A DNA stretch of 64,000 bases from Acidimicrobiales bacterium (GTDB lineage: Bacteria > Actinomycetota > Acidimicrobiia > Acidimicrobiales > Iamiaceae). A model generated the notes under the pieces. The model was not told the origin of the DNA. It saw nothing but the letters and a program-made list of their open reading frames with translations, and did not search any database. Shown in pieces: positions 51,268 to 60,365 of this stretch; positions within the stretch are counted from its first letter, which is position 1, and each line of letters starts with the position of its first letter. The stretch is taken from assembly GCA_035547835.1 (NCBI GenBank), contig DASZTW010000005.1:806001-870000 (forward strand). Reading direction: 5' to 3'. A program made the position numbers and the translations under genes.

Positions 51268-53229
51268 TCAGCCGGCAGCAGTGGGTGCCTTGGCGACCTC
51301 GGCGAGGAACTCCTCGTTGGTCTTGAAGGTCTTGAGGCGGTCAATGAGCATCTCGAGCCCAGCGGCCGAGGTGCCGCCGTCGCTCGCCAGGCCCGACAGC
51401 ACCCGGCGCAACCGCCAAGCCTGCTGGAGCTGCTTGCGCTCGAACAGCAGCTCCTCGTGACGGGTCGACGAGGCGTCGACGTCGATCGCGGGGTAGATGC
51501 GACGCTCGGCGAGCCGGCGGTCGAGCCGCAGCTCCATGTTGCCGGTGCCCTTGAACTCCTCGAAGATCACTTCGTCCATCTTTGAGCCGGTCTCGACCAG
51601 CGCAGTGGCCAAGATCGTGAGCGACCCGCCTTCTTCGAGGTTGCGGGCGGCACCGAAGAACTTCTTCGGCGGGTACAGCGCGCCGGTGTCGATACCACCG
51701 GACATGATCCGGCCGGTCGCCGGTGCCGCCAAGTTGTAGGCACGCGACAGGCGGGTGATGCCGTCGAGCATGATGACGACGTCCTGGCCGTCCTCGACGC
51801 GGCGCTTGGCCCGCTCGATCACCAGCTCGGCCACTTGCGTGTGCTCGTCGCTCGGGCGGTCGAAGGTGGAGGCGATCACCTCGCCGCGGGTGAGCGACCG
51901 GCGGAAGTCGGTGACCTCTTCGGGTCGCTCGTCGACCAGCAACACCATCAGGTGCACTTCGGGGCTGTTGAGCTCGATCGAGTGGGCGATCTGCTTCATG
52001 ACCGTGGTCTTGCCGGCCTTCGGGGGCGACACGATGAGGCCGCGCTGGCCCTTGCCGATCGGGCAGACCAGGTCGATGATGCGCGCCGTCATGTTGGTGG
52101 GGTCGGCGGGCGACTCCATCGTGAGGCGCTGGTCGGGGAACAACGGGGTGAGGTCCTCGAAGCGAGGCCGCTTGCGCATCACTTCGGGGTCGCCGGCATT
52201 GACCGTGTCGATCCGCAGCAACGCCGGGTTCTTCTCGTTGCGGGTGGCGGGCCGCGCCGCGCCCTTCAAGATGTCGCCCTTGCGGAGGCCGAACTGGCGG
52301 ACCTGCTTGACGGAGACGTAGACGTCGTCCTTGCTCGACAGGTAGCCCTTGAGCCGCAAGAAGCCGTAGCCCTCGTCGCGCAGGTCGAGCATGCCCTCCA
52401 CCTCGACGGGCTCGCCTTGCCACTCCTCGACCGGGCCGCGCTCGCGCTCGCCGCCACGCCCGCGCCGGCGCCGCCGCCGGTTGCCCGGCTCGGGCTCCTC
52501 GCCCCGGTTCTGGTTCTGGCCGCCTTGGCCTTGGCCACCCTGGCCGCCGCCTTGGCCGCCTTGGTTCTGGCCGTTGCGGTTGCCCTTGTTGCGGTTCTGG
52601 TTCTGGCCGCCCTGGTTCTGGCCACCCTGGTTCTGGTTGCGCTGCTGGCCCTGACCGCCCTGGTTGCCGCGACCGCCTTGGCCCTGGGAGTCGCCGCGGT
52701 CGCCGCGGTCGCCGCGGTCGTGCGAGCGGTCGCCGTCCTCGGCCGACGCGTCGCTGGACGCCGTGGCGCGCTCGTCGGCGTCACCCCCGTCGTCGCCCCG
52801 CGAGGAGGTCGAGCCGTTGGACGAGAAACGGGCACCTTCGCCCGCATCGTCGGCCGCCTCGTCGGCGCGGGACCCGTCGTGGCCGGGCTCGTCGTGATCG
52901 GACGCATCGTGGTTGGACGGGGCGCCCTCGGTCGCCGCGCCGTTGGTGGCAACGGAAGGAACGGCACCGTCGGTGTCGACGGCGCCATCGGCGGTGCCGT
53001 CAGCGGTGTCGTCCTTGCGGGCGCCGCGACGCGGCTTCACGGCCGCTTCGGGCGCGGCGTCGCCGGCTGGCTCCTCCACCCCTGCGAGTTGGAGGATCAG
53101 GTCGACGATGTCGCCCTTGCGGGCGCGCGACGGTGGCTTCTTGCCGAGGGCCTCGGCGATGCTCACCAGGGCCTCGCGCTCCTTGCGTTCAAGGACCGAG
53201 CGATCAAGCTCTTGGGACCCCACGCTCAT
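51268..53229 (-). CDS. rho: Transcription termination factor Rho
   Basis: Hexameric RNA helicase terminating transcription. The 653-residue product is much longer than the usual 420. An N-terminal Rho_N domain ([20 protein letters not shown] and DIVDLILQL) is followed by a disordered insert of about 200 residues, first acidic/Ser/Ala-rich, then Asn/Gln/Gly-rich (NQGGQ-type repeats) and finally an Arg block ([11 protein letters not shown]). The cold-shock RNA-binding domain has [13 protein letters not shown]; Walker A is [20 protein letters not shown], then [14 protein letters not shown] and [16 protein letters not shown] at 53229 has GAGG 6 bp upstream; an in-frame ATG 17 codons earlier lacks one. 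Confidence 0.96.
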
Positions 53230-53459
53230 CGGAACCTCGTTTTTCTCGATGCCGGTCGTGTGCTCACGCGTGGTTGCCACGTGTCGTCAGGACCAGCAGT
53301 TGCGATCCGGGAAGACCGGGAGGTGGGTGCAACACAGAACGGACCCACGATCCCGGAGGACCACCCTCCGACGCAGCGCATCGCAAGTCGATGCTGGTCG
53401 GGGAGGTGTCCTCGCAGTGTAGCGCGATCACAACGCGGCACCGCATTTCGCGGCGGGGT
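53230..53459 (-). promoter_or_regulatory. Leader region of rho
   Basis: A 230-bp gap between the PGM-like gene stop and the rho start. It holds a hairpin CGGAGG/CCTCCG (53354-53359 and 53365-53370) and two similar TCCCGGATC-type segments. Long leaders of rho often mediate autoregulation, which is known for other bacteria and only inferred here. A TACACT (53416-53421 on the minus strand) could be a minus-10 but has no good minus-35. The open frames in it look non-coding. Confidence 0.35.
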
Positions 53460-54620
53460 TCAGCGAACAGCGACCAGGCGGCCCATCAGCTCGTGACCAG
53501 GCACGAGTGGCCGATCGGCCACGCCGGCTTCGGTGTAGCGCCCGCCTTCCACAGGGGTCTGCGAGTCGAACAGCAGGTAGGGCACCGGGTCGGGGGTGTG
53601 GGTCTTGAGCTCGACCGGCGTGCCGTGGTCGGGCAGCAGCAACATCCGCCACGGACCGAGCTCGTCGAGCTCGCCGATCAACGGCGCGAGGATGCGGCGG
53701 TCCCAGTTCTCGAGCGCCTTGACCTTCTCTTCCACGTTGCCGGCGTGGCCGGCTTCGTCGGTGGCCTCCACGTGGATGATGAACAAGTCGGCGCCGTCCG
53801 CGAGCGCGTCGAGCGCGGCTTCACGCTTGCCTTCGTAGTTGGTGTCGTACCAGCCAGTGGCGCCCTCGACGTCGATGACCTCGACGCCCGCGAGCACGCC
53901 GAGCCCGCGCACGAGGTCGACGGCCGTGACCAACCCTGCGTCGAGACCCCAGCGCGAGGTGAACGACGGGAGCTGCGGGCGCGTGCCCTGGCCCCACAGC
54001 CAGATCTGGTTCGCGGCGAGCGAGGAACCGCCCACGATGGGCCGCGAGCGTTCCATCAGATCGGCGAGGCGTCCCGCGGCCGGTCCGGAGGGACCGATGA
54101 TCGCCTTGTCGGACAGGTCGTGCGGCGGCACGCACTCCGCGTCGGCCCACGATGCGGGGGCCACGACGATGTGGCGGTACTGCACGCCCGGGTGGAACGA
54201 CACCGGCCCGTCGGGGGTGTCGCCGCCGAGCGCGGCGTCGAGCTCCGCGATCACGTTGGCCGCGGCGTCGCTGTCGGGGTGGCCGCCGGCGAAGTCGACC
54301 ATGGTGCCGTCGTCGCCGACCGTCACCAGGTTGCAGCGGAAGGCGACTTGGTCGTCGGCCAGGTCGATGCCGAGCGCGGCCGCCTCGATGGGCGCGCGGC
54401 CGGTGTGGTACTCGGCGGGGTCGTAACCGAAGATCGACATGTTGCCGACGTCGCTGCCCGGCGGCAGCCCCGGAGGGATGACGCCGGCCCGTCCGATCTC
54501 GGCGCGGGCGGCCAAACCCTGCAACGTGGGCAGCTCGGCCGCCTCCAGCGGAGTCCGCCCGCCGAGCGCCGCCACCGGCTGATCGGCGCAGCCATCGGGC
54601 ACGCAGACGACGTACTTCAT
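53460..54620 (-). CDS. ApgM-type phosphoglycerate mutase homologue, putative homoserine kinase
   Basis: A 386-residue alkaline-phosphatase-superfamily protein of the archaeal cofactor-independent phosphoglycerate mutase group. Metal and nucleophile motifs are VCVPDGCADQPVAALGG at the N-terminus, PPGSDVGNMSIFGYDPAEY, FIIHVEATDEAGHAGNVEEK and LLLPDHGTPVELKTHTPDPV. It lies 43 bp after thrC in the hom-thrC cluster, and no GHMP-type thrB is in the cluster. A subfamily of these mutases in threonine operons has been proposed to be an alternative homoserine kinase. That role fits the context better than glycolysis, but it is inference. Confidence 0.8.
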   Translation of the reverse strand: MKYVVCVPDGCADQPVAALGGRTPLEAAELPTLQGLAARAEIGRAGVIPPGLPPGSDVGNMSIFGYDPAEYHTGRAPIEAAALGIDLADDQVAFRCNLVTVGDDGTMVDFAGGHPDSDAAANVIAELDAALGGDTPDGPVSFHPGVQYRHIVVAPASWADAECVPPHDLSDKAIIGPSGPAAGRLADLMERSRPIVGGSSLAANQIWLWGQGTRPQLPSFTSRWGLDAGLVTAVDLVRGLGVLAGVEVIDVEGATGWYDTNYEGKREAALDALADGADLFIIHVEATDEAGHAGNVEEKVKALENWDRRILAPLIGELDELGPWRMLLLPDHGTPVELKTHTPDPVPYLLFDSQTPVEGGRYTEAGVADRPLVPGHELMGRLVAVR

Positions 54621-54663
54621 CGCCCGAGCCTACGCGTCGCCCGGAGAAGTCCGGAACGGGCGC

Positions 54664-56052
54664 TCAACCGGCGACACGATCGAGGACGAACGACCGGACC
54701 TGGTCGAGGTCGTTGTCGAGGACGGAGACGCGCTCGGGTCGATCGTGGAGGTCGGCGAGCCACGAGGGCAGCTCCGGGCGCTCGCCAGTGGCCTGCTCGA
54801 CCGCATCGGGGAACTTGGCGGCCGACGCCGTGGCCAGGACCACCATCGGCACGTCAGGGTCGGTGTGCACCTGGCGCGCCGCCCCGAGCCCGACGGCCGT
54901 GTGGGGGTCGACGAACCTTCCGGAGCGGTCATGGAGCGAGCGGATCTCGGCGAGCGTGGCTTCGTCGTCGAGGCGCACGCCACGGAAGACCTCGCGGACC
55001 TCGGCCATTGCTTCGTCGGGCAGGCGCACCGCGCCTTCGGCCCGGAACTGCTCGAGCTGCCGCGCCACGGTCGCGCCGTCGCGGCCCGCCAGCTCGAACA
55101 GCAGGCGCTCGAGGTTGCTCGACACTTGGATGTCCATGCTGGGACTGAGCGTGGGCACCACGTCGGCGAGCGACATCGTGCCGCTGTCGAGCCAGCGGGT
55201 GAGGATGTCGTTGGTGTTGGACGCCACCACGAGCTGTTCGATCGGCAGGCCCATCTGACGAGCGACCCAGCCGGCGAACACGTTGCCGAAGTTCCCCGTC
55301 GGCACGGCGAACGAGATCGGCGCCATGCCACCCGACCCGTGCACCGCCCGGTGACTGGTCACGTAGTACACGGTCTGCGCCATCACCCGGGCCCAGTTGA
55401 TGGAGTTCATGGCCGACAGGCGGACCTTGTCGCGGAAGGCGACATCGGCGAACAACGCCTTCACGAGGTCCTGGCAGTCGTCGAACGTGCCTTCGATGGC
55501 GACGTTGTGGACGTTGGGCTCGTCGACCGTGGTCATCTGGCGCCGCTGCACGTCGCTGACGCGGCCGCGAGGGTGCAGCACCACGATGTCGAGCGACGAC
55601 CGGCCGCGGCACGCCTCGATCGCGGCCGACCCGGTGTCACCTGACGTGGCGACCACGATCGTGGCCCGCTCGCCCCGCCGGGTGAGCTCGTGGTCGAAGA
55701 GGCGGCCGACCAACTGCAACGCCACGTCCTTGAACGCCAACGTGGGCCCGTGGAACAGCTCGCACAGCCACAGCCCGTCCCCAAGGGGCGCGACAGGGCA
55801 GACGTCGCGATGGTGGAACGTGGCGTACGCGTCGACCACCATCGATGCGAAGTCGTCGCGACCGATCGCGCCGTCGACGAACGGCCACATCACGTCGGTG
55901 GCGACCTCGGCGTACGTGGCGCCTTCACCCGGCTGGTCGAGGCGAGGCCAGGCATCGGGCACGTACAGCCCGCCGTCGGGCGCCAGCCCGGTGAGCAGCA
56001 CGTCGGCGAACCCGACGGCCGGGGCCGCGCCGCGGGTGGAGACGTACTGCAT
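54664..56052 (-). CDS. thrC: Threonine synthase
   Basis: Converts O-phosphohomoserine to threonine with PLP. The 462-residue protein is of the longer class, starting MQYVSTRGAAPAVGFADVLL. The PLP Lys is in LFHGPTLAFKDVALQLVGRL, the phosphate/substrate site in VATSGDTGSAAIEA, and AVPTGNFGNVFAGWVARQM is intact. The ATG overlaps the hom stop by one base (TGATG). Its substrate must come from a homoserine kinase; the next gene is the candidate. Confidence 0.96.
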   Translation of the reverse strand: MQYVSTRGAAPAVGFADVLLTGLAPDGGLYVPDAWPRLDQPGEGATYAEVATDVMWPFVDGAIGRDDFASMVVDAYATFHHRDVCPVAPLGDGLWLCELFHGPTLAFKDVALQLVGRLFDHELTRRGERATIVVATSGDTGSAAIEACRGRSSLDIVVLHPRGRVSDVQRRQMTTVDEPNVHNVAIEGTFDDCQDLVKALFADVAFRDKVRLSAMNSINWARVMAQTVYYVTSHRAVHGSGGMAPISFAVPTGNFGNVFAGWVARQMGLPIEQLVVASNTNDILTRWLDSGTMSLADVVPTLSPSMDIQVSSNLERLLFELAGRDGATVARQLEQFRAEGAVRLPDEAMAEVREVFRGVRLDDEATLAEIRSLHDRSGRFVDPHTAVGLGAARQVHTDPDVPMVVLATASAAKFPDAVEQATGERPELPSWLADLHDRPERVSVLDNDLDQVRSFVLDRVAG

Positions 56053-57371
56053 CAGCGGTCGTCCTCGCTGGCCACCACCCGCAACATCGACCCGACGCGG
56101 TTCACCGGGTCGAGGCCGCGCAGGTCATGCAACGTGGCCTGGATGTCGGCCTCGCGGGCCGAGTGGGTGATGAAGATGATGCGGGCGCCGCCGCCGTCGA
56201 GCACTTCCTGCTCCATCGAGCGGATCGACACGCCGTGACGCTCGAACACCTCGGCGATCACCCGCAAGACGCCGGGCCGGTCGGCCACTTCGAGGTTCAA
56301 GTAGTACGGCGAGCGGGTGTCGTCGATCGGCCTGATGGCGATGCGGCCGAAGGAGCCGAGCGTGGCGTGCGTGCCCTTTTGGAGGTTGTGCGCGGCATCG
56401 ACCACGTCGCCCAACACCGCCGACGCGGTCGGCGAACCGCCCGCGCCGCGCCCGTACAGCATCAAGTCGCCCACGGCCTCGCCTTGGACGAACACCGCGT
56501 TGAAGCTCTCGCGGACGCTCGCCAGTGGGTGGTTCACCGGCACCATCGCCGGGTGCACCCGGACGGCGACGGTGGGATGGTCGAGGTCGACGATGCGCTC
56601 GGCCACCGCGAGCAGCTTGATCTCGTAGCCGAGGCGCTGCGCGAACCCGATGTCGGTGCGGGTGACGGTGGAGATGCCTTCGCGGTAGACGTCGCCGGCG
56701 ACCACCCGCGCGCCGAACGCGATCGAGGCGATGATCGCCGTCTTGGCAGCGGCGTCGAAGCCCTCGACGTCGGCGGTGGGGTCGGCCTCGGCGAACCCGA
56801 GCGACTGCGCTTCGGCGAGCGCTTCCGCGTACGCCACCCCGCCCTCGGACATGCGGGTGAGGATGTAGTTGGTGGTGCCGTTGACGATGCCGAGCACCCG
56901 GTGGATGCGGTCACCCGCCAGGGACTCGCGCAGCGGGCGGATGATCGGGATGCCGCCGCCGACCGCCGCCTCGAACAACAAGTCGAGCCCGCAACCGTCG
57001 GCCGCCGCGAACAGCTCGGTCCCGAAGTTGGCGAGCAGCTCCTTGTTGGCCGTGACCACCGGCTTGCCACCCTTGAGCGCGTTGATGATGAGCTCACGGG
57101 CCGGTTCGATGCCGCCGATCACCTCGACGACGAGGTCGATGTCGGGGTCGTCGACCACCGCCGCGGCATCGGTGGTGAGCACGCCGTCGGGCAGGCGGAC
57201 GGGTCGCTCGCGGGCCACGCTGCGCACGACGACCTTGGCGATCTGCAAGTCGAGGCCGGTGCGGGCGGCGATCGCATCGCGCTGCACGTCGACGAGCCCC
57301 ACCAGCGCGGCACCGACGTTGCCGCACCCCAGCAGACCGATGCGCACGGGTCGGGTTTCCTGTTGGCCCAC
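56052..57371 (-). CDS. hom: Homoserine dehydrogenase
   Basis: Reduces aspartate semialdehyde to homoserine. The product (about 439 residues) has the NAD(P) motif RIGLLGCGNVGAALVGLV, VVTANKELLANFG, the catalytic region VLGIVNGTTNYILTRMSEGG and ADPTADVEGFDAAAKTAII, and a C-terminal ACT domain (YYLNLEVADRPGVLRVIAEV) for feedback control by threonine. GTG at 57371 is given; GTG at 57347, directly before RIGLLG, has AGGA 10 bp upstream and is just as likely. lysA lies 91 bp upstream. Confidence 0.95.
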   Translation of the reverse strand: MGQQETRPVRIGLLGCGNVGAALVGLVDVQRDAIAARTGLDLQIAKVVVRSVARERPVRLPDGVLTTDAAAVVDDPDIDLVVEVIGGIEPARELIINALKGGKPVVTANKELLANFGTELFAAADGCGLDLLFEAAVGGGIPIIRPLRESLAGDRIHRVLGIVNGTTNYILTRMSEGGVAYAEALAEAQSLGFAEADPTADVEGFDAAAKTAIIASIAFGARVVAGDVYREGISTVTRTDIGFAQRLGYEIKLLAVAERIVDLDHPTVAVRVHPAMVPVNHPLASVRESFNAVFVQGEAVGDLMLYGRGAGGSPTASAVLGDVVDAAHNLQKGTHATLGSFGRIAIRPIDDTRSPYYLNLEVADRPGVLRVIAEVFERHGVSIRSMEQEVLDGGGARIIFITHSAREADIQATLHDLRGLDPVNRVGSMLRVVASEDDR

Positions 57372-57462
57372 CCCCAGATCGTAGTGGTGGGCCGTCGAGT
57401 GCTCCGCACCGGGTTTCCGGCTCGATCCGGGCCCCGAGAAGGCCTGAGGTTCGACCCGCGCG

Positions 57463-58767
57463 TCAGCCGACGTCGGTGGCGAGCAGGTCGTCGAAGGTCT
57501 CGCGACGGATGACCAGCCGAGCGTCACCGTCGGCGACGAACACCGCTGCGGGCCGCGGGAGCCAGTTGTAGTTCGACCCCATCGACCGGCCGTACGCGCC
57601 GGTGACCGGCGTGGCGATCACGTCGCCCACCGCCAGGTCGGCCGGCACCGCGGCCTCGTGGACCAGCACGTCGCCCGACTCGCAGTGCTTGCCGACCAGG
57701 CGCACGGACAGGCCGCGGGAGGCCGCGAGCGCACGGGGCAAGAACGTCTCGTAGCCGCTGCCGTACAGCGCGGGACGGGGGTTGTCGATGAACCCGCCGT
57801 CGCACGCGACGTACGTGCGGATGCCGGGCAGCTCCTTGATGGTGCCCGCGGTGTACAGCGTGACGGCCGCAGCTGCCGCGATCGCGCGGCCCGGCTCCGC
57901 CGACACCCGGGCCGTGATGCCGTGGTGCTCGCACGCGAGGCGCACGACTGTGCCCCACTCGGTGATCGACGGAGCCGTCTCGCCCGCGACGTACGCCACG
58001 CCGAGCCCGCCGCCGATCGACAGCTCCGGCAACCCCAGCGGCACCACGAAGGGGGCCAACGCTTCGACGGCCTGCTCGAAGAACCCGGCCACGAACACTT
58101 GCGAGCCGATGTGGGCGTGGATACCGACCAGCTCGACAGAGGCAGCGCCTTGCGCACGCTCCACCGCTCGGGCTGCGTCGCCGGACACCAACCCGAACCC
58201 GAACTTGGAGTCGTCCTGGCCCGTCCTGACGTACTCGTGAGTGTGTGCCTCCACGCCCGGCGTGACCCGCAGCAGCACGCGGGCGACCCGACCGTCGGAC
58301 GCGTGTAGCGCGTCGAGGCGGTCGAGCTCGTCGAACGAGTCGACCACGACGCGCCCGACGCCCGCCTCGCGCGCCGCGACCAGCTCGGCGGTCGCCTTGT
58401 TGTTGCCGTGCACGACGATGCGGTCGGCCGGCACCCCCGCCGCCAGCGCGACACCCAGCTCTCCCCCGCTCGCCACGTCGAGGTGCAGGCCCTCTTCGTA
58501 CACGAGCCGCGCCATCGCGCGGCACAAGAACGCCTTGGTGGCATACGCGACACCGTCGCCGAACGCGGCGAGCGCCTCGCGACAGCGGCTGCGGAGGTGG
58601 GCTTCGTCGTACACGAACAGCGGGGTGCCGAACTCGGCCGCGAGCTCGAGCGTGTCGCACCCGCCGATGAACAACTGCCCTGACGACCCGACGGCCGCCG
58701 TGTCGGGTAGCAGCTCCCGCGGCAGCGGCGTCCCCGACGGCCGAGACCCCGGCTGCGGGGCGCTCAC
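57463..58767 (-). CDS. lysA: Diaminopimelate decarboxylase
   Basis: Makes lysine from meso-diaminopimelate. The 434-residue fold-III PLP enzyme shows VAYATKAFLCRAMARLV with the PLP Lys, GVEAHTHEYVRTGQDDSKFG, ELVGIHAHIGSQVF, the glycine-rich LSIGGGLGVAYV, SAEPGRAI, and KHCESGDVLVHEA with the cross-subunit Cys-Glu. The GTG at 58767 overlaps the argS stop (GTGA). The order argS-lysA-hom-thrC is a standard actinobacterial cluster. Confidence 0.97.
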   Translation of the reverse strand: MSAPQPGSRPSGTPLPRELLPDTAAVGSSGQLFIGGCDTLELAAEFGTPLFVYDEAHLRSRCREALAAFGDGVAYATKAFLCRAMARLVYEEGLHLDVASGGELGVALAAGVPADRIVVHGNNKATAELVAAREAGVGRVVVDSFDELDRLDALHASDGRVARVLLRVTPGVEAHTHEYVRTGQDDSKFGFGLVSGDAARAVERAQGAASVELVGIHAHIGSQVFVAGFFEQAVEALAPFVVPLGLPELSIGGGLGVAYVAGETAPSITEWGTVVRLACEHHGITARVSAEPGRAIAAAAAVTLYTAGTIKELPGIRTYVACDGGFIDNPRPALYGSGYETFLPRALAASRGLSVRLVGKHCESGDVLVHEAAVPADLAVGDVIATPVTGAYGRSMGSNYNWLPRPAAVFVADGDARLVIRRETFDDLLATDVG

Positions 58768-60365
58768 AACGACTCCGGTGCGGACACCCCGAGGAGGTCC
58801 AGCCCGATCGCGAAGCCGACCCTCGCGGCCTCCACCAGCCACAAGCGTGCTTGGGTGACCTCGGCCGGGATGTCGTCGCCGACGACATAGCAGTCGTGGT
58901 AGAAGCCGTGGAACGCGCCGGCCAGCTCGCGCACCCAGGTCGTCACTTTGTGAGGTGCCCGCTCCTTGCAGGCGAGCTCCACCACGTCGGGCAGGTCGGC
59001 GAGCGACCGCAACACGTCGAGCTCACGCTCGTGGGTGAGCACGGCGAGCTCGACTTCCGCCAGCGGCGCCCGTGCCACGCCGGCCTCCGTCGCACGGCGC
59101 AAGATGCCGTGGATCCGGGCATGGGCCATCTGCACGTAGAAGACCGGGTTGTCCATGCCTTGGCTGACCACCACGGCCATGTCGACCGTCTGGCGCGAGT
59201 CGATCGACTGCAACAGGTACGTGAGCCGAGCAGCGTCGGTCCCGGCGATCTCGACGATGTCGCGCAGCTCGATGACCGTGCCGGCGCGCTTCGACAACTT
59301 CAGCGGCTGCCCGTCTTGGAGCAGGTCGACCATCTGCGTGATCTCGACATCGAGGGAGGCAGGGTCGTGGCCCAGCGCTTGCATCGCCGCGCGCATGCGG
59401 GCGACGTAGCCGTGGTGGTCGGCGCCCCACACGTTGATCAGCCGGCCGGCACGGGAGAACTTGTCACGGTGGTACGCGATGTCGGGCAGGAGGTACGTGA
59501 ACTCGCCGTCGCTCTTGATCAGCACGCGGTCCTTGTCGTCGCCGTAGTCCGACGACCGCAGCCACGTCGCACCGTCGGCTTCGTAGACCACGCCGTGGTC
59601 TCGCAAGTCGCGCAGCGTGTCGTCGATCGCGCCGGCGTCGACCATCGACTTCTCGCTGAACCACACGTCGAAGCGCACGTTGAACGAGTCGAGCACCGCC
59701 CGCTGGTCCGCGAGCGCGTGCTCCTCGCCCCACTCCGCGGGGTCGACCCCGTCGGGCATGTCGGCTGCCCAGTCGACGATGTACTGGCCCTGATAGCCGT
59801 CCTCGGGCGGTTCGGCGCCCGACTTCCGGGCGGCCAGCGACTCGCCGAAGCGCTGCATCTGGACGCCGCGGTCGTTGATGTAGAACTCCCGCGTCGCCGC
59901 ATACCCGCACCGGTCGAGGAGCCTGGCCACCGAGTCGCCGTGGGCGGCGCCGCGGGCGTGGCCTGCGTGCACCGGACCGGTGGGGTTGGCGCTCACGAAC
60001 TCGACGATCACCGTCGCGCCACCACCCAGATCGGGCGCCGCGTAGCGGTCCGGACCCGCGGTGACGACATCGGTGAGCACGTCGTGGAGCCACGACTCAC
60101 GCAAGTGGAAGTTGACGAAGCCGGGGCCGGCCAGCTCGACGCGCTCGACGTGCGGCGGCGGCGCGGCGTTCAGCGCGTCGGCCACTTGCTGGGCGAGCTC
60201 GCGGGGGTTTCGTCCGCCCCGTTTAGCCGTGGCCAGCGCGACGTTCGACGACCAGTCACCGTGCTCACGACGGGCTGGTCGCTCCATGCCGATCTCGTCG
60301 GGCGGCTCGACACCTGCCGATGCGAGCGCCACGCGCAGCTGCTCGACCAGATCGTCGCGGATCAC
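58764..60365 (-). CDS. argS: Arginyl-tRNA synthetase
   Basis: Class I synthetase of 533 residues. The ArgRS-specific N-terminal domain (VEQLRVALASAGVEPPDEIG) is followed by the HIGH motif in SANPTGPVHAGHARGA, FYINDRGVQMQRFGESLAAR, the DIAYHRDKFSRAGRLINVWG region, the KMSKS equivalent LKLSKRAGTVIEL and the anticodon-binding helical domain. The GTG at 60365 is chosen because AAAGGAG lies 6 bp upstream; a longer frame starting ten codons earlier has no ribosome site. Confidence 0.97.
   Translation of the reverse strand: MIRDDLVEQLRVALASAGVEPPDEIGMERPARREHGDWSSNVALATAKRGGRNPRELAQQVADALNAAPPPHVERVELAGPGFVNFHLRESWLHDVLTDVVTAGPDRYAAPDLGGGATVIVEFVSANPTGPVHAGHARGAAHGDSVARLLDRCGYAATREFYINDRGVQMQRFGESLAARKSGAEPPEDGYQGQYIVDWAADMPDGVDPAEWGEEHALADQRAVLDSFNVRFDVWFSEKSMVDAGAIDDTLRDLRDHGVVYEADGATWLRSSDYGDDKDRVLIKSDGEFTYLLPDIAYHRDKFSRAGRLINVWGADHHGYVARMRAAMQALGHDPASLDVEITQMVDLLQDGQPLKLSKRAGTVIELRDIVEIAGTDAARLTYLLQSIDSRQTVDMAVVVSQGMDNPVFYVQMAHARIHGILRRATEAGVARAPLAEVELAVLTHERELDVLRSLADLPDVVELACKERAPHKVTTWVRELAGAFHGFYHDCYVVGDDIPAEVTQARLWLVEAARVGFAIGLDLLGVSAPESL

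Follow-up and report, generated by a model that had tools for sequence, protein, structure and literature searches.

A phosphoglycerate-mutase homologue encoded in the threonine cluster of an Acidimicrobiales bacterium is likely to make O-phosphohomoserine for the adjacent threonine synthase ThrC, most plausibly as an alkaline-phosphatase-fold phosphotransferase acting through Ser56, and probably without ATP. The gene lies in a window of 64,000 nucleotides (contig DASZTW010000005.1), at 53460..54620 on the minus strand. Open reading frame (ORF), family scans, tree and structural model identify its product as an archaeal-type homologue of 386 amino acids, a candidate homoserine phosphotransferase; it is called ApgM-T here, together with the other members of its clade. 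An earlier note on this DNA had proposed that this ApgM-like copy makes O-phosphohomoserine by replacing the homoserine kinase ThrB. The formation of O-phosphohomoserine is supported by co-occurrence data, by a gene swap in the same slot and by a residue signature; strict replacement is not borne out, as ThrB is also present in 7/38 and 8/65 ApgM-T genomes of the two samples described below. Nor is the ATP dependence that the note envisaged supported, since the protein shares its fold and its retained nucleophile with mutases that work through a phosphoserine enzyme. The more general statement that a mutase subfamily near threonine genes has been proposed as homoserine kinase is in print (TIGR02535, also named ThrB2; PMC7311316, PMC9026213). 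The idea is thus known, and unproven, at the level of the family, and the window protein is a further clade member, one that scores below the model cut-off. Such a member, the same-slot swap, the paralogue control with classical ApgM and dPGM, clusters containing both genes and the residue signature are new here.

Transcription of the window genes on the minus strand follows the order argS-lysA-hom-thrC-apgM-like-rho-prfA-prmC, with an L-threonylcarbamoyladenylate synthase gene at the end (names from family scans). The threonine synthase gene thrC (54664..56052, minus strand; 462 amino acids) is assigned by its ORF and by a match to TIGR00260 at 248 bits (cut-off 167), and its stop codon is separated by 43 bp from the apgM-like ATG at 54620. 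Both the hom-thrC-(ApgM-like) order and the 43 bp gap are therefore as first described.

The earlier note had found no GHMP homoserine kinase in this cluster, and the same holds for the genome: thrB is missing as far as the assembly (3.70 Mb in 22 contigs, 96.7% complete, window on contig 5) and known models go. No GHMP ThrB was found in the window genome with TIGR00191 at E 1e-3, a search that was positive in 14/14 control genomes. Two GHMP-domain genes appear when E values up to 10 are admitted; a hidden ThrB among them is ruled out, as one is galactokinase-like and the other IspE-like. ApgM-T itself matches neither TIGR00191 nor PF00288 at E 1e-3. HSK2 (TIGR00938) gave no match in the window genome at E 1e-3, and was over its cut-off in 0/148 genomes of the class. 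For ThrH (TIGR02137), searched within the class in the window genome only, the best match is an 11.7-bit fragment (E = 0.25, cut-off 223.4). A separate glycolytic phosphoglycerate mutase (PGM), the presence of which had also been raised as a check, was found in the form of a dPGM (G000:C17:163711-164457, 340 bits); no iPGM match was obtained in this genome at E 1e-30. Because of the dPGM, the apgM-like gene is not necessarily required for glycolysis.

Few genomes hold both ApgM-T and ThrB. Two samples were analysed, with tables compiled by hand from search listings: 148 genomes of the class (ApgM-T called at ≥230 bits to TIGR02535, ThrB at ≥100 bits) and 314 genomes of the phylum outside the class (ApgM-T at ≥300 bits, ThrB at E ≤1e-25). 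Within the class, ApgM-T occurs in 38/148 genomes, including one fragment (G060, 238 bits, with a gap of Ns), and ThrB in 78/148; 7 genomes have both, 71 only ThrB, 31 only ApgM-T and 39 neither. Without one family of small genomes (n = 114), the corresponding numbers are 7, 71, 31 and 5 (Fisher 4e-16, a test that ignores shared ancestry and is meant as description only). In the phylum sample, where fragments under 300 bits (e.g. G270, G389) were counted as non-ApgM-T, ThrB is present in 8/65 ApgM-T genomes versus 205/249 others (Fisher 4e-26, to be read in the same way); a laxer ThrB threshold of E 1e-15 gives 19/65 versus 213/249.

At thresholds of E 1e-20 for dPGM and E 1e-30 for iPGM, each of the 38 ApgM-T genomes of the class has a second kind of PGM, either dPGM (32 genomes) or a classical ApgM (6 genomes). 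Classical ApgM (157-179 bits) was found in 7 class genomes, all of which are without a dPGM match. Since classical ApgM occurs without dPGM and ApgM-T always beside another PGM, the former seems to do the glycolytic job and the latter not.

In G075, a member of the window's order, a GHMP protein of 268 amino acids lies between thrC and rho, giving hom-thrC-thrB-rho, an in-place swap; this protein reaches 135.6 bits with TIGR00191, below the cut-off of 168.25. More generally, a count by eye puts a thrC no more than 6 kb from ApgM-T in at least 27 of the 38 ApgM-T genomes of the class, a recurrence beyond chance; wherever both are listed on one contig they are 0 to ~5 kb apart, except in G110. 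Among the class ApgM-T loci of at least 11 kb that were opened (n = 17), 15 are flanked by Hom and, on the opposite side, by Rho. In class genomes that hold both ApgM-T and ThrB, four ThrB loci were opened (L043, L045, L047, L077), and no hom or thrC match was found beside ThrB. Relatives were sampled for neighbourhoods as the best 80 of 586; ThrB was found in 0/80 of these loci, a weak test, since only one ThrB query, a divergent one, was used and many of the contigs are short. Hom or ThrC is nearby in 31 of the 46 named loci outside the class, the record titles of which include Nitrospirota, Omnitrophota, Deltaproteobacteria, Planctomycetota, Clostridia, others and one Gaiellales. A survey of neighbouring ORFs covered 45 of these 46 loci (L129 was lost) and yielded, by a simple rule, 32 upstream and 40 downstream ORFs. 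The ORF directly upstream of ApgM-T encodes a PALP-domain protein in 12/32 cases and Hom in 7/32; the one directly downstream is aspartokinase-like (amino acid kinase and ACT domains) in 11/40. A GlpX-type fructose-1,6-bisphosphatase directly follows ApgM-T in 8/40 loci (among L113-L158).

The fold of the window protein is that of an archaeal-type mutase, because the best solved-structure match of its AlphaFold model (mean predicted local distance difference test score, pLDDT, 96.4) is 2zkt_B (Z 43.8, root-mean-square deviation 2.5, 354 residues aligned). In a tree of 133 rows, 113 ApgM-T rows are split from 20 classical rows by a branch with support 100; the tree was built with a quick method and a midpoint root, and this very split is, according to a warning of the program, a meeting point of long branches. 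The underlying alignment took ORFs of 340-470 amino acids, with duplicates and ORFs containing X dropped; the 113 ApgM-T rows comprise 112 different ones, the window protein being present twice, and the classical rows stem from the class (7) and, hand-picked, from the phylum sample (13). Four top-scoring TIGR02535 proteins of the phylum sample (L159-L162), which exceed the cut-off, fall on the window protein's side of the tree and share its D235, E285 and E289; BT2402, the family member of Bacteroides thetaiotaomicron, is not in the alignment. Clustering with hom and thrC and the absence of thrB likewise agree with what is reported for TIGR02535/ThrB2 (PMC7311316, PMC9026213). The window protein differs from that family in its score, in its position in the slot between thrC and rho, and in that its genome uses a dPGM.

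The metal and nucleophile motifs of ApgM, to which the earlier note had drawn attention, were confirmed by reading residues from the alignment: D9, S56, D288, H292, D331, H332 and H341. Following family knowledge, we take Ser56 to be the nucleophile and the other six to be metal ligands. Apart from H292, each of these residues is conserved in both clades with no more than one exception; H292 is conserved in ApgM-T but in only 9/20 classical rows. The predicted phosphoryl-accepting Ser56 (codon AGC at 54453..54455; this and the following codons are on the minus strand) is S in 112/113 ApgM-T rows, with one T, and in 20/20 classical rows. Three positions that are basic in every classical row are never R or K in the 113 ApgM-T rows: position 110 (R in 20/20 classical rows; F, Y or H in 113/113, and F110 in the window protein), position 209 (R in 17 and K in 3 classical rows; W in 112 ApgM-T rows and F in one, with Trp209 at 53994..53996) and position 285 (K in 20/20 classical rows; E in 113/113, with Glu285 at 53766..53768, three residues before Asp288). 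Asp235 (53916..53918) is likewise specific to ApgM-T, with D in 113/113 rows and in 0/20 classical rows, which have P (19) or V (1). E289 is invariant in ApgM-T and also found in 3/20 classical rows, and position 114 is R in 17/20 classical and H in 102/113 ApgM-T rows. The copies of L163, L164 and L165 (G282, G369 and G165) have Glu at 114 and His at 110, unlike most of the clade.

A search effect on these counts has to be considered: 68 ApgM-T rows were found with patterns containing WLWGQG or GRAPIEAAA, which favours W207, W209 and Q211. The rows found by hidden Markov model (n = 43) have W209 in 42/43 and D235, E285 and E289 in all 43. Archaeal-type PGMs of known structure (PH0037, 2zkt; T. 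acidophilum, 3idd/3kd8) resemble the window protein in fold and in metal and nucleophile residues, and differ from it in sequence (25-28% identity) and at the putative substrate site. According to alignments read by eye, 2zkt and 3kd8 carry the classical letters at 60, 110, 111, 114, 209 and 285 (R, R and K at 110, 209 and 285); their basic residues at 110, 111, 114, 209 and 285 and their His60 are all replaced in the window protein. The loss of the basic residues speaks against a mutase-like binding of phosphoglycerate, and the gained acidic residues (Asp235, Glu285 and also Glu289) could bind an amino acid acceptor through its amino group.

A mechanism can be proposed on this basis. Two metal ions bound by D9, D288, H292, D331, H332 and H341 would activate Ser56, which would be phosphorylated by a small phosphate donor; phospho-Ser56 would then pass the phosphoryl group to the side-chain hydroxyl of homoserine. 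The phosphoglycerate site of the mutase would have been remodelled for this purpose through the loss of Arg/Lys and the gain of Asp235 and Glu285. A phosphoserine enzyme is argued for because the nucleophile and the two-metal site are retained, and this is the course described for the iPGM reaction (PMC5382265). Homoserine is the likeliest acceptor because hom lies on one side and the product of thrC would consume O-phosphohomoserine. An ATP-free route has a precedent, since ThrH uses phosphoserine instead of ATP to phosphorylate homoserine, presumably through a phosphorylated enzyme intermediate (PMC1079889); ThrH differs in belonging to a HAD-like family, represented in the window genome by the fragment match mentioned above. 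As to the donor, phosphoenolpyruvate (PEP) is a tentative choice, at somewhat less than an even chance; a donor such as PEP was suggested by the TIGRFAM curators (reported in PMC7311316). 2- or 3-Phosphoglycerate is an unlikely donor, as is, to the same degree, ATP or another nucleotide, and phosphoserine or some other compound would be quite surprising. The chances appear even that ApgM-T in general is an ATP-independent homoserine phosphotransferase, working as a phosphoserine enzyme with phosphate from a glycolytic or other small ester, and that this chemistry stands beside ATP kinases and ThrH in many phyla. Searches of the open-access literature on the phosphoryl donor and on PhpG returned nothing useful, and no paper on ApgM-T in Acidimicrobiia was found there.

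More is on record for the family as a whole. According to the GapMind study, mutants in TIGR02535/BT2402 are rescued by threonine (PMC7311316). The two most frequent low-confidence steps in that analysis include, in second place, homoserine kinase; it is affected in 29/148 organisms that grow without amino acids, and 15 of these 29 hold TIGR02535 (PMC7311316). A survey of gut genomes, in which the family was named ThrB2, reports thrB to be absent from 278/300 genomes holding ThrB2 (PMC9026213), and a tool paper of 2022 lists BT2402 as an alternative homoserine kinase with conserved zinc sites (PMC9765024).

Several observations weigh against the proposal that ApgM-T makes O-phosphohomoserine in place of ThrB. 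Among the family models, TIGR00306 (apgM) is passed by the window protein at 414.3 bits (cut-off 320) and the mutase-named NF003242 ('cofactor-independent phosphoglycerate mutase') is just passed (428.9 bits, cut-off 426), while TIGR02535 (proposed homoserine kinase) is missed, at 420.5 bits versus a curated cut-off of 446.3. This shortfall is common to 35/38 ApgM-T genomes of the class, the cut-off being passed in 3/148 class genomes. The presence of both genes in 7 class and 8 phylum genomes counts against strict replacement. A further 39 class genomes, 34 of them from one family with genomes of ~1 Mb, have neither gene; it follows that ThrB absence alone does not point to ApgM-T and that a further route is probable. 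Gene order is not always as expected. In G110, from the window's family, lysA-hom-thrC lies elsewhere and ApgM-T is still beside rho; in G123, rho is near ApgM-T and no Hom is found up to the contig end. Four phylum genomes with both genes were opened: G165, G282 and G369 (L165, L163 and L164) have lysA-hom-thrC-ApgM-T-thrB in one cluster, and in G268 ThrB adjoins hom, and thrC has a divergent ApgM-T next to it on the opposite strand. Finally, in the closest genetic test in print, BT2402 did not complement an Escherichia coli thrB mutant (PMC7311316); biochemical proof for any ApgM-T/TIGR02535 member was not found in the open-access literature; and the window genome was examined for ThrB, HSK2 and ThrH, none of which is over its cut-off, and was not searched for shikimate-kinase-like homoserine kinases of the Desulfovibrio type.

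ApgM-T could be an ATP-dependent homoserine kinase, a reading that overlaps with that of a phosphotransferase except for the donor and that is judged unlikely. It would be the simplest explanation of ThrB replacement, and nucleotide pyrophosphatases of the wider superfamily are among the fold matches of the model. Against it, ApgM-T has no kinase-family match besides TIGR02535's own proposal; moreover, the nucleophilic serine and the two-metal site are retained, and ThrH phosphorylates homoserine without ATP (PMC1079889). ThrB itself is an ATP kinase of an unrelated family; it serves the same proposed pathway step and, in G075, occupies the same place in the cluster.

A role in threonine synthesis that does not consist in making O-phosphohomoserine, for example with threonine, a regulatory phosphate ester or a by-product ester of phosphate as the substrate, is rather unlikely. 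It would account for genomes in which ApgM-T stands side by side with thrB, and for the finding that BT2402 mutants need threonine and yet the gene fails to complement E. coli thrB (PMC7311316). It is also in keeping with Dehre_1608, a TIGR02535-like Dehalobacter protein proposed as an L-threonine kinase (PMC4285132). This protein resembles the window protein in that it is proposed to phosphorylate a hydroxy amino acid; it differs in that it belongs to a corrinoid operon, not to a hom-thrC cluster, and its function is itself a proposal (PMC4285132). On the other side, some enzyme must make O-phosphohomoserine in those ApgM-T genomes without a recognised ThrB (31/38 and 57/65), and the lack of rescue could simply be due to an absent donor, poor folding or an unsuitable metal. 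If ATP-independent transfer by ApgM-T were correct, this failure would reflect donor or cofactor needs.

It is improbable that O-phosphohomoserine comes from an unrecognised kinase encoded elsewhere in the genome. The assembly is 96.7% complete and in 22 contigs, 39 class genomes lack both ThrB and ApgM-T, and the homoserine kinases left out of the search, shikimate-kinase-like proteins of the DvMF_0971 type, are known from Desulfovibrio (PMC5764234). Set against this are the ThrB, HSK2 and ThrH models without a match over cut-off, the strong complementarity with ThrB and the slot swap in G075. An annotated thrH is on record for one species of Ilumatobacter (PMC3910706).

The reading as an ordinary archaeal-type phosphoglycerate mutase that adjoins hom-thrC by chance is highly improbable and is rejected here: it has in its favour the fold, the conserved catalytic residues and an NF003242 score 3 bits above the cut-off, but the residue signature (110, 209 and 285) and the other PGM in every class genome with ApgM-T, the window genome included, speak against it, and NF003242 fails to separate ApgM-T from the classical clade because L159, a top TIGR02535 member, scores even higher with it (604.6 bits). 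NF003242 (PRK04200) is an equivalog model, and may name many ApgM-T proteins as mutases.

Homoserine phosphorylation by ApgM-T, if true, would mean that the phosphoglycerate-mutase annotation has to be corrected in many genomes. With the complementarity in class and phylum, the slot swap and the short signature, 'proposed homoserine kinase' becomes a claim that experiments can decide.

The class genomes with neither gene form a subject of their own. In the small-genome family (f15; 34 genomes of ~1 Mb, e.g. L183-L186), no ThrB of 100 bits and no ApgM-T was found, yet thrC is present in 26; this family therefore probably takes up threonine or has another enzyme that phosphorylates homoserine. 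Weak thrB_alt matches occur in open frames of 316-351 amino acids in 32/34 f15 genomes; these frames were dropped as kinase candidates, as no hom, thrC or lysA match was found nearby in the four genomes opened. Three genomes of the window's order (G118, G091 and G031; L187, L188 and L190) have hom-thrC but, with the thresholds applied here, no ThrB and no ApgM-T. No ORF of 120 amino acids is listed between thrC and rho in G118 and G031, and the ORF of 296 amino acids right behind thrC in G091 was discarded as a candidate, being a short-chain dehydrogenase.

The remaining features of the window cluster are all on the minus strand. The hom gene (56052..57371) encodes a homoserine dehydrogenase with an ACT domain according to the family scan. 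Its longest ORF extends over 57527-56052 and contains a GTG codon at 57371-57369; the dehydrogenase profile begins only at residue 59 of this ORF, and the start given in the earlier note fits both. The neighbouring lysA (diaminopimelate decarboxylase, 57463..58842) overlaps the long hom ORF. Downstream, rho (transcription termination factor, 51268..53280; TIGR00767 567.5 bits, cut-off 509) is the conserved neighbour that fixes the slot. An RNA regulator in the cluster was ruled out, as no Rfam match at gathering score was obtained within 53000-58000 of the window. Two kinds of ThrC are found behind hom in the class: a long one with an N-terminal Thr_synth_N domain, as in the window, and a shorter one (380 amino acids, L053), which is not retrieved by the window ThrC (tblastn, E 1e-8). 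Four loci derive from metagenome bins titled Bifidobacterium breve (three) or Klebsiella pneumoniae (one), namely L085, L093, L096 and L157; in the tree, L085 and L093 have ApgM-T proteins that group with Acidimicrobiia-like rows, and the one of L157 groups with deltaproteobacterial rows, so that these titles look wrong.

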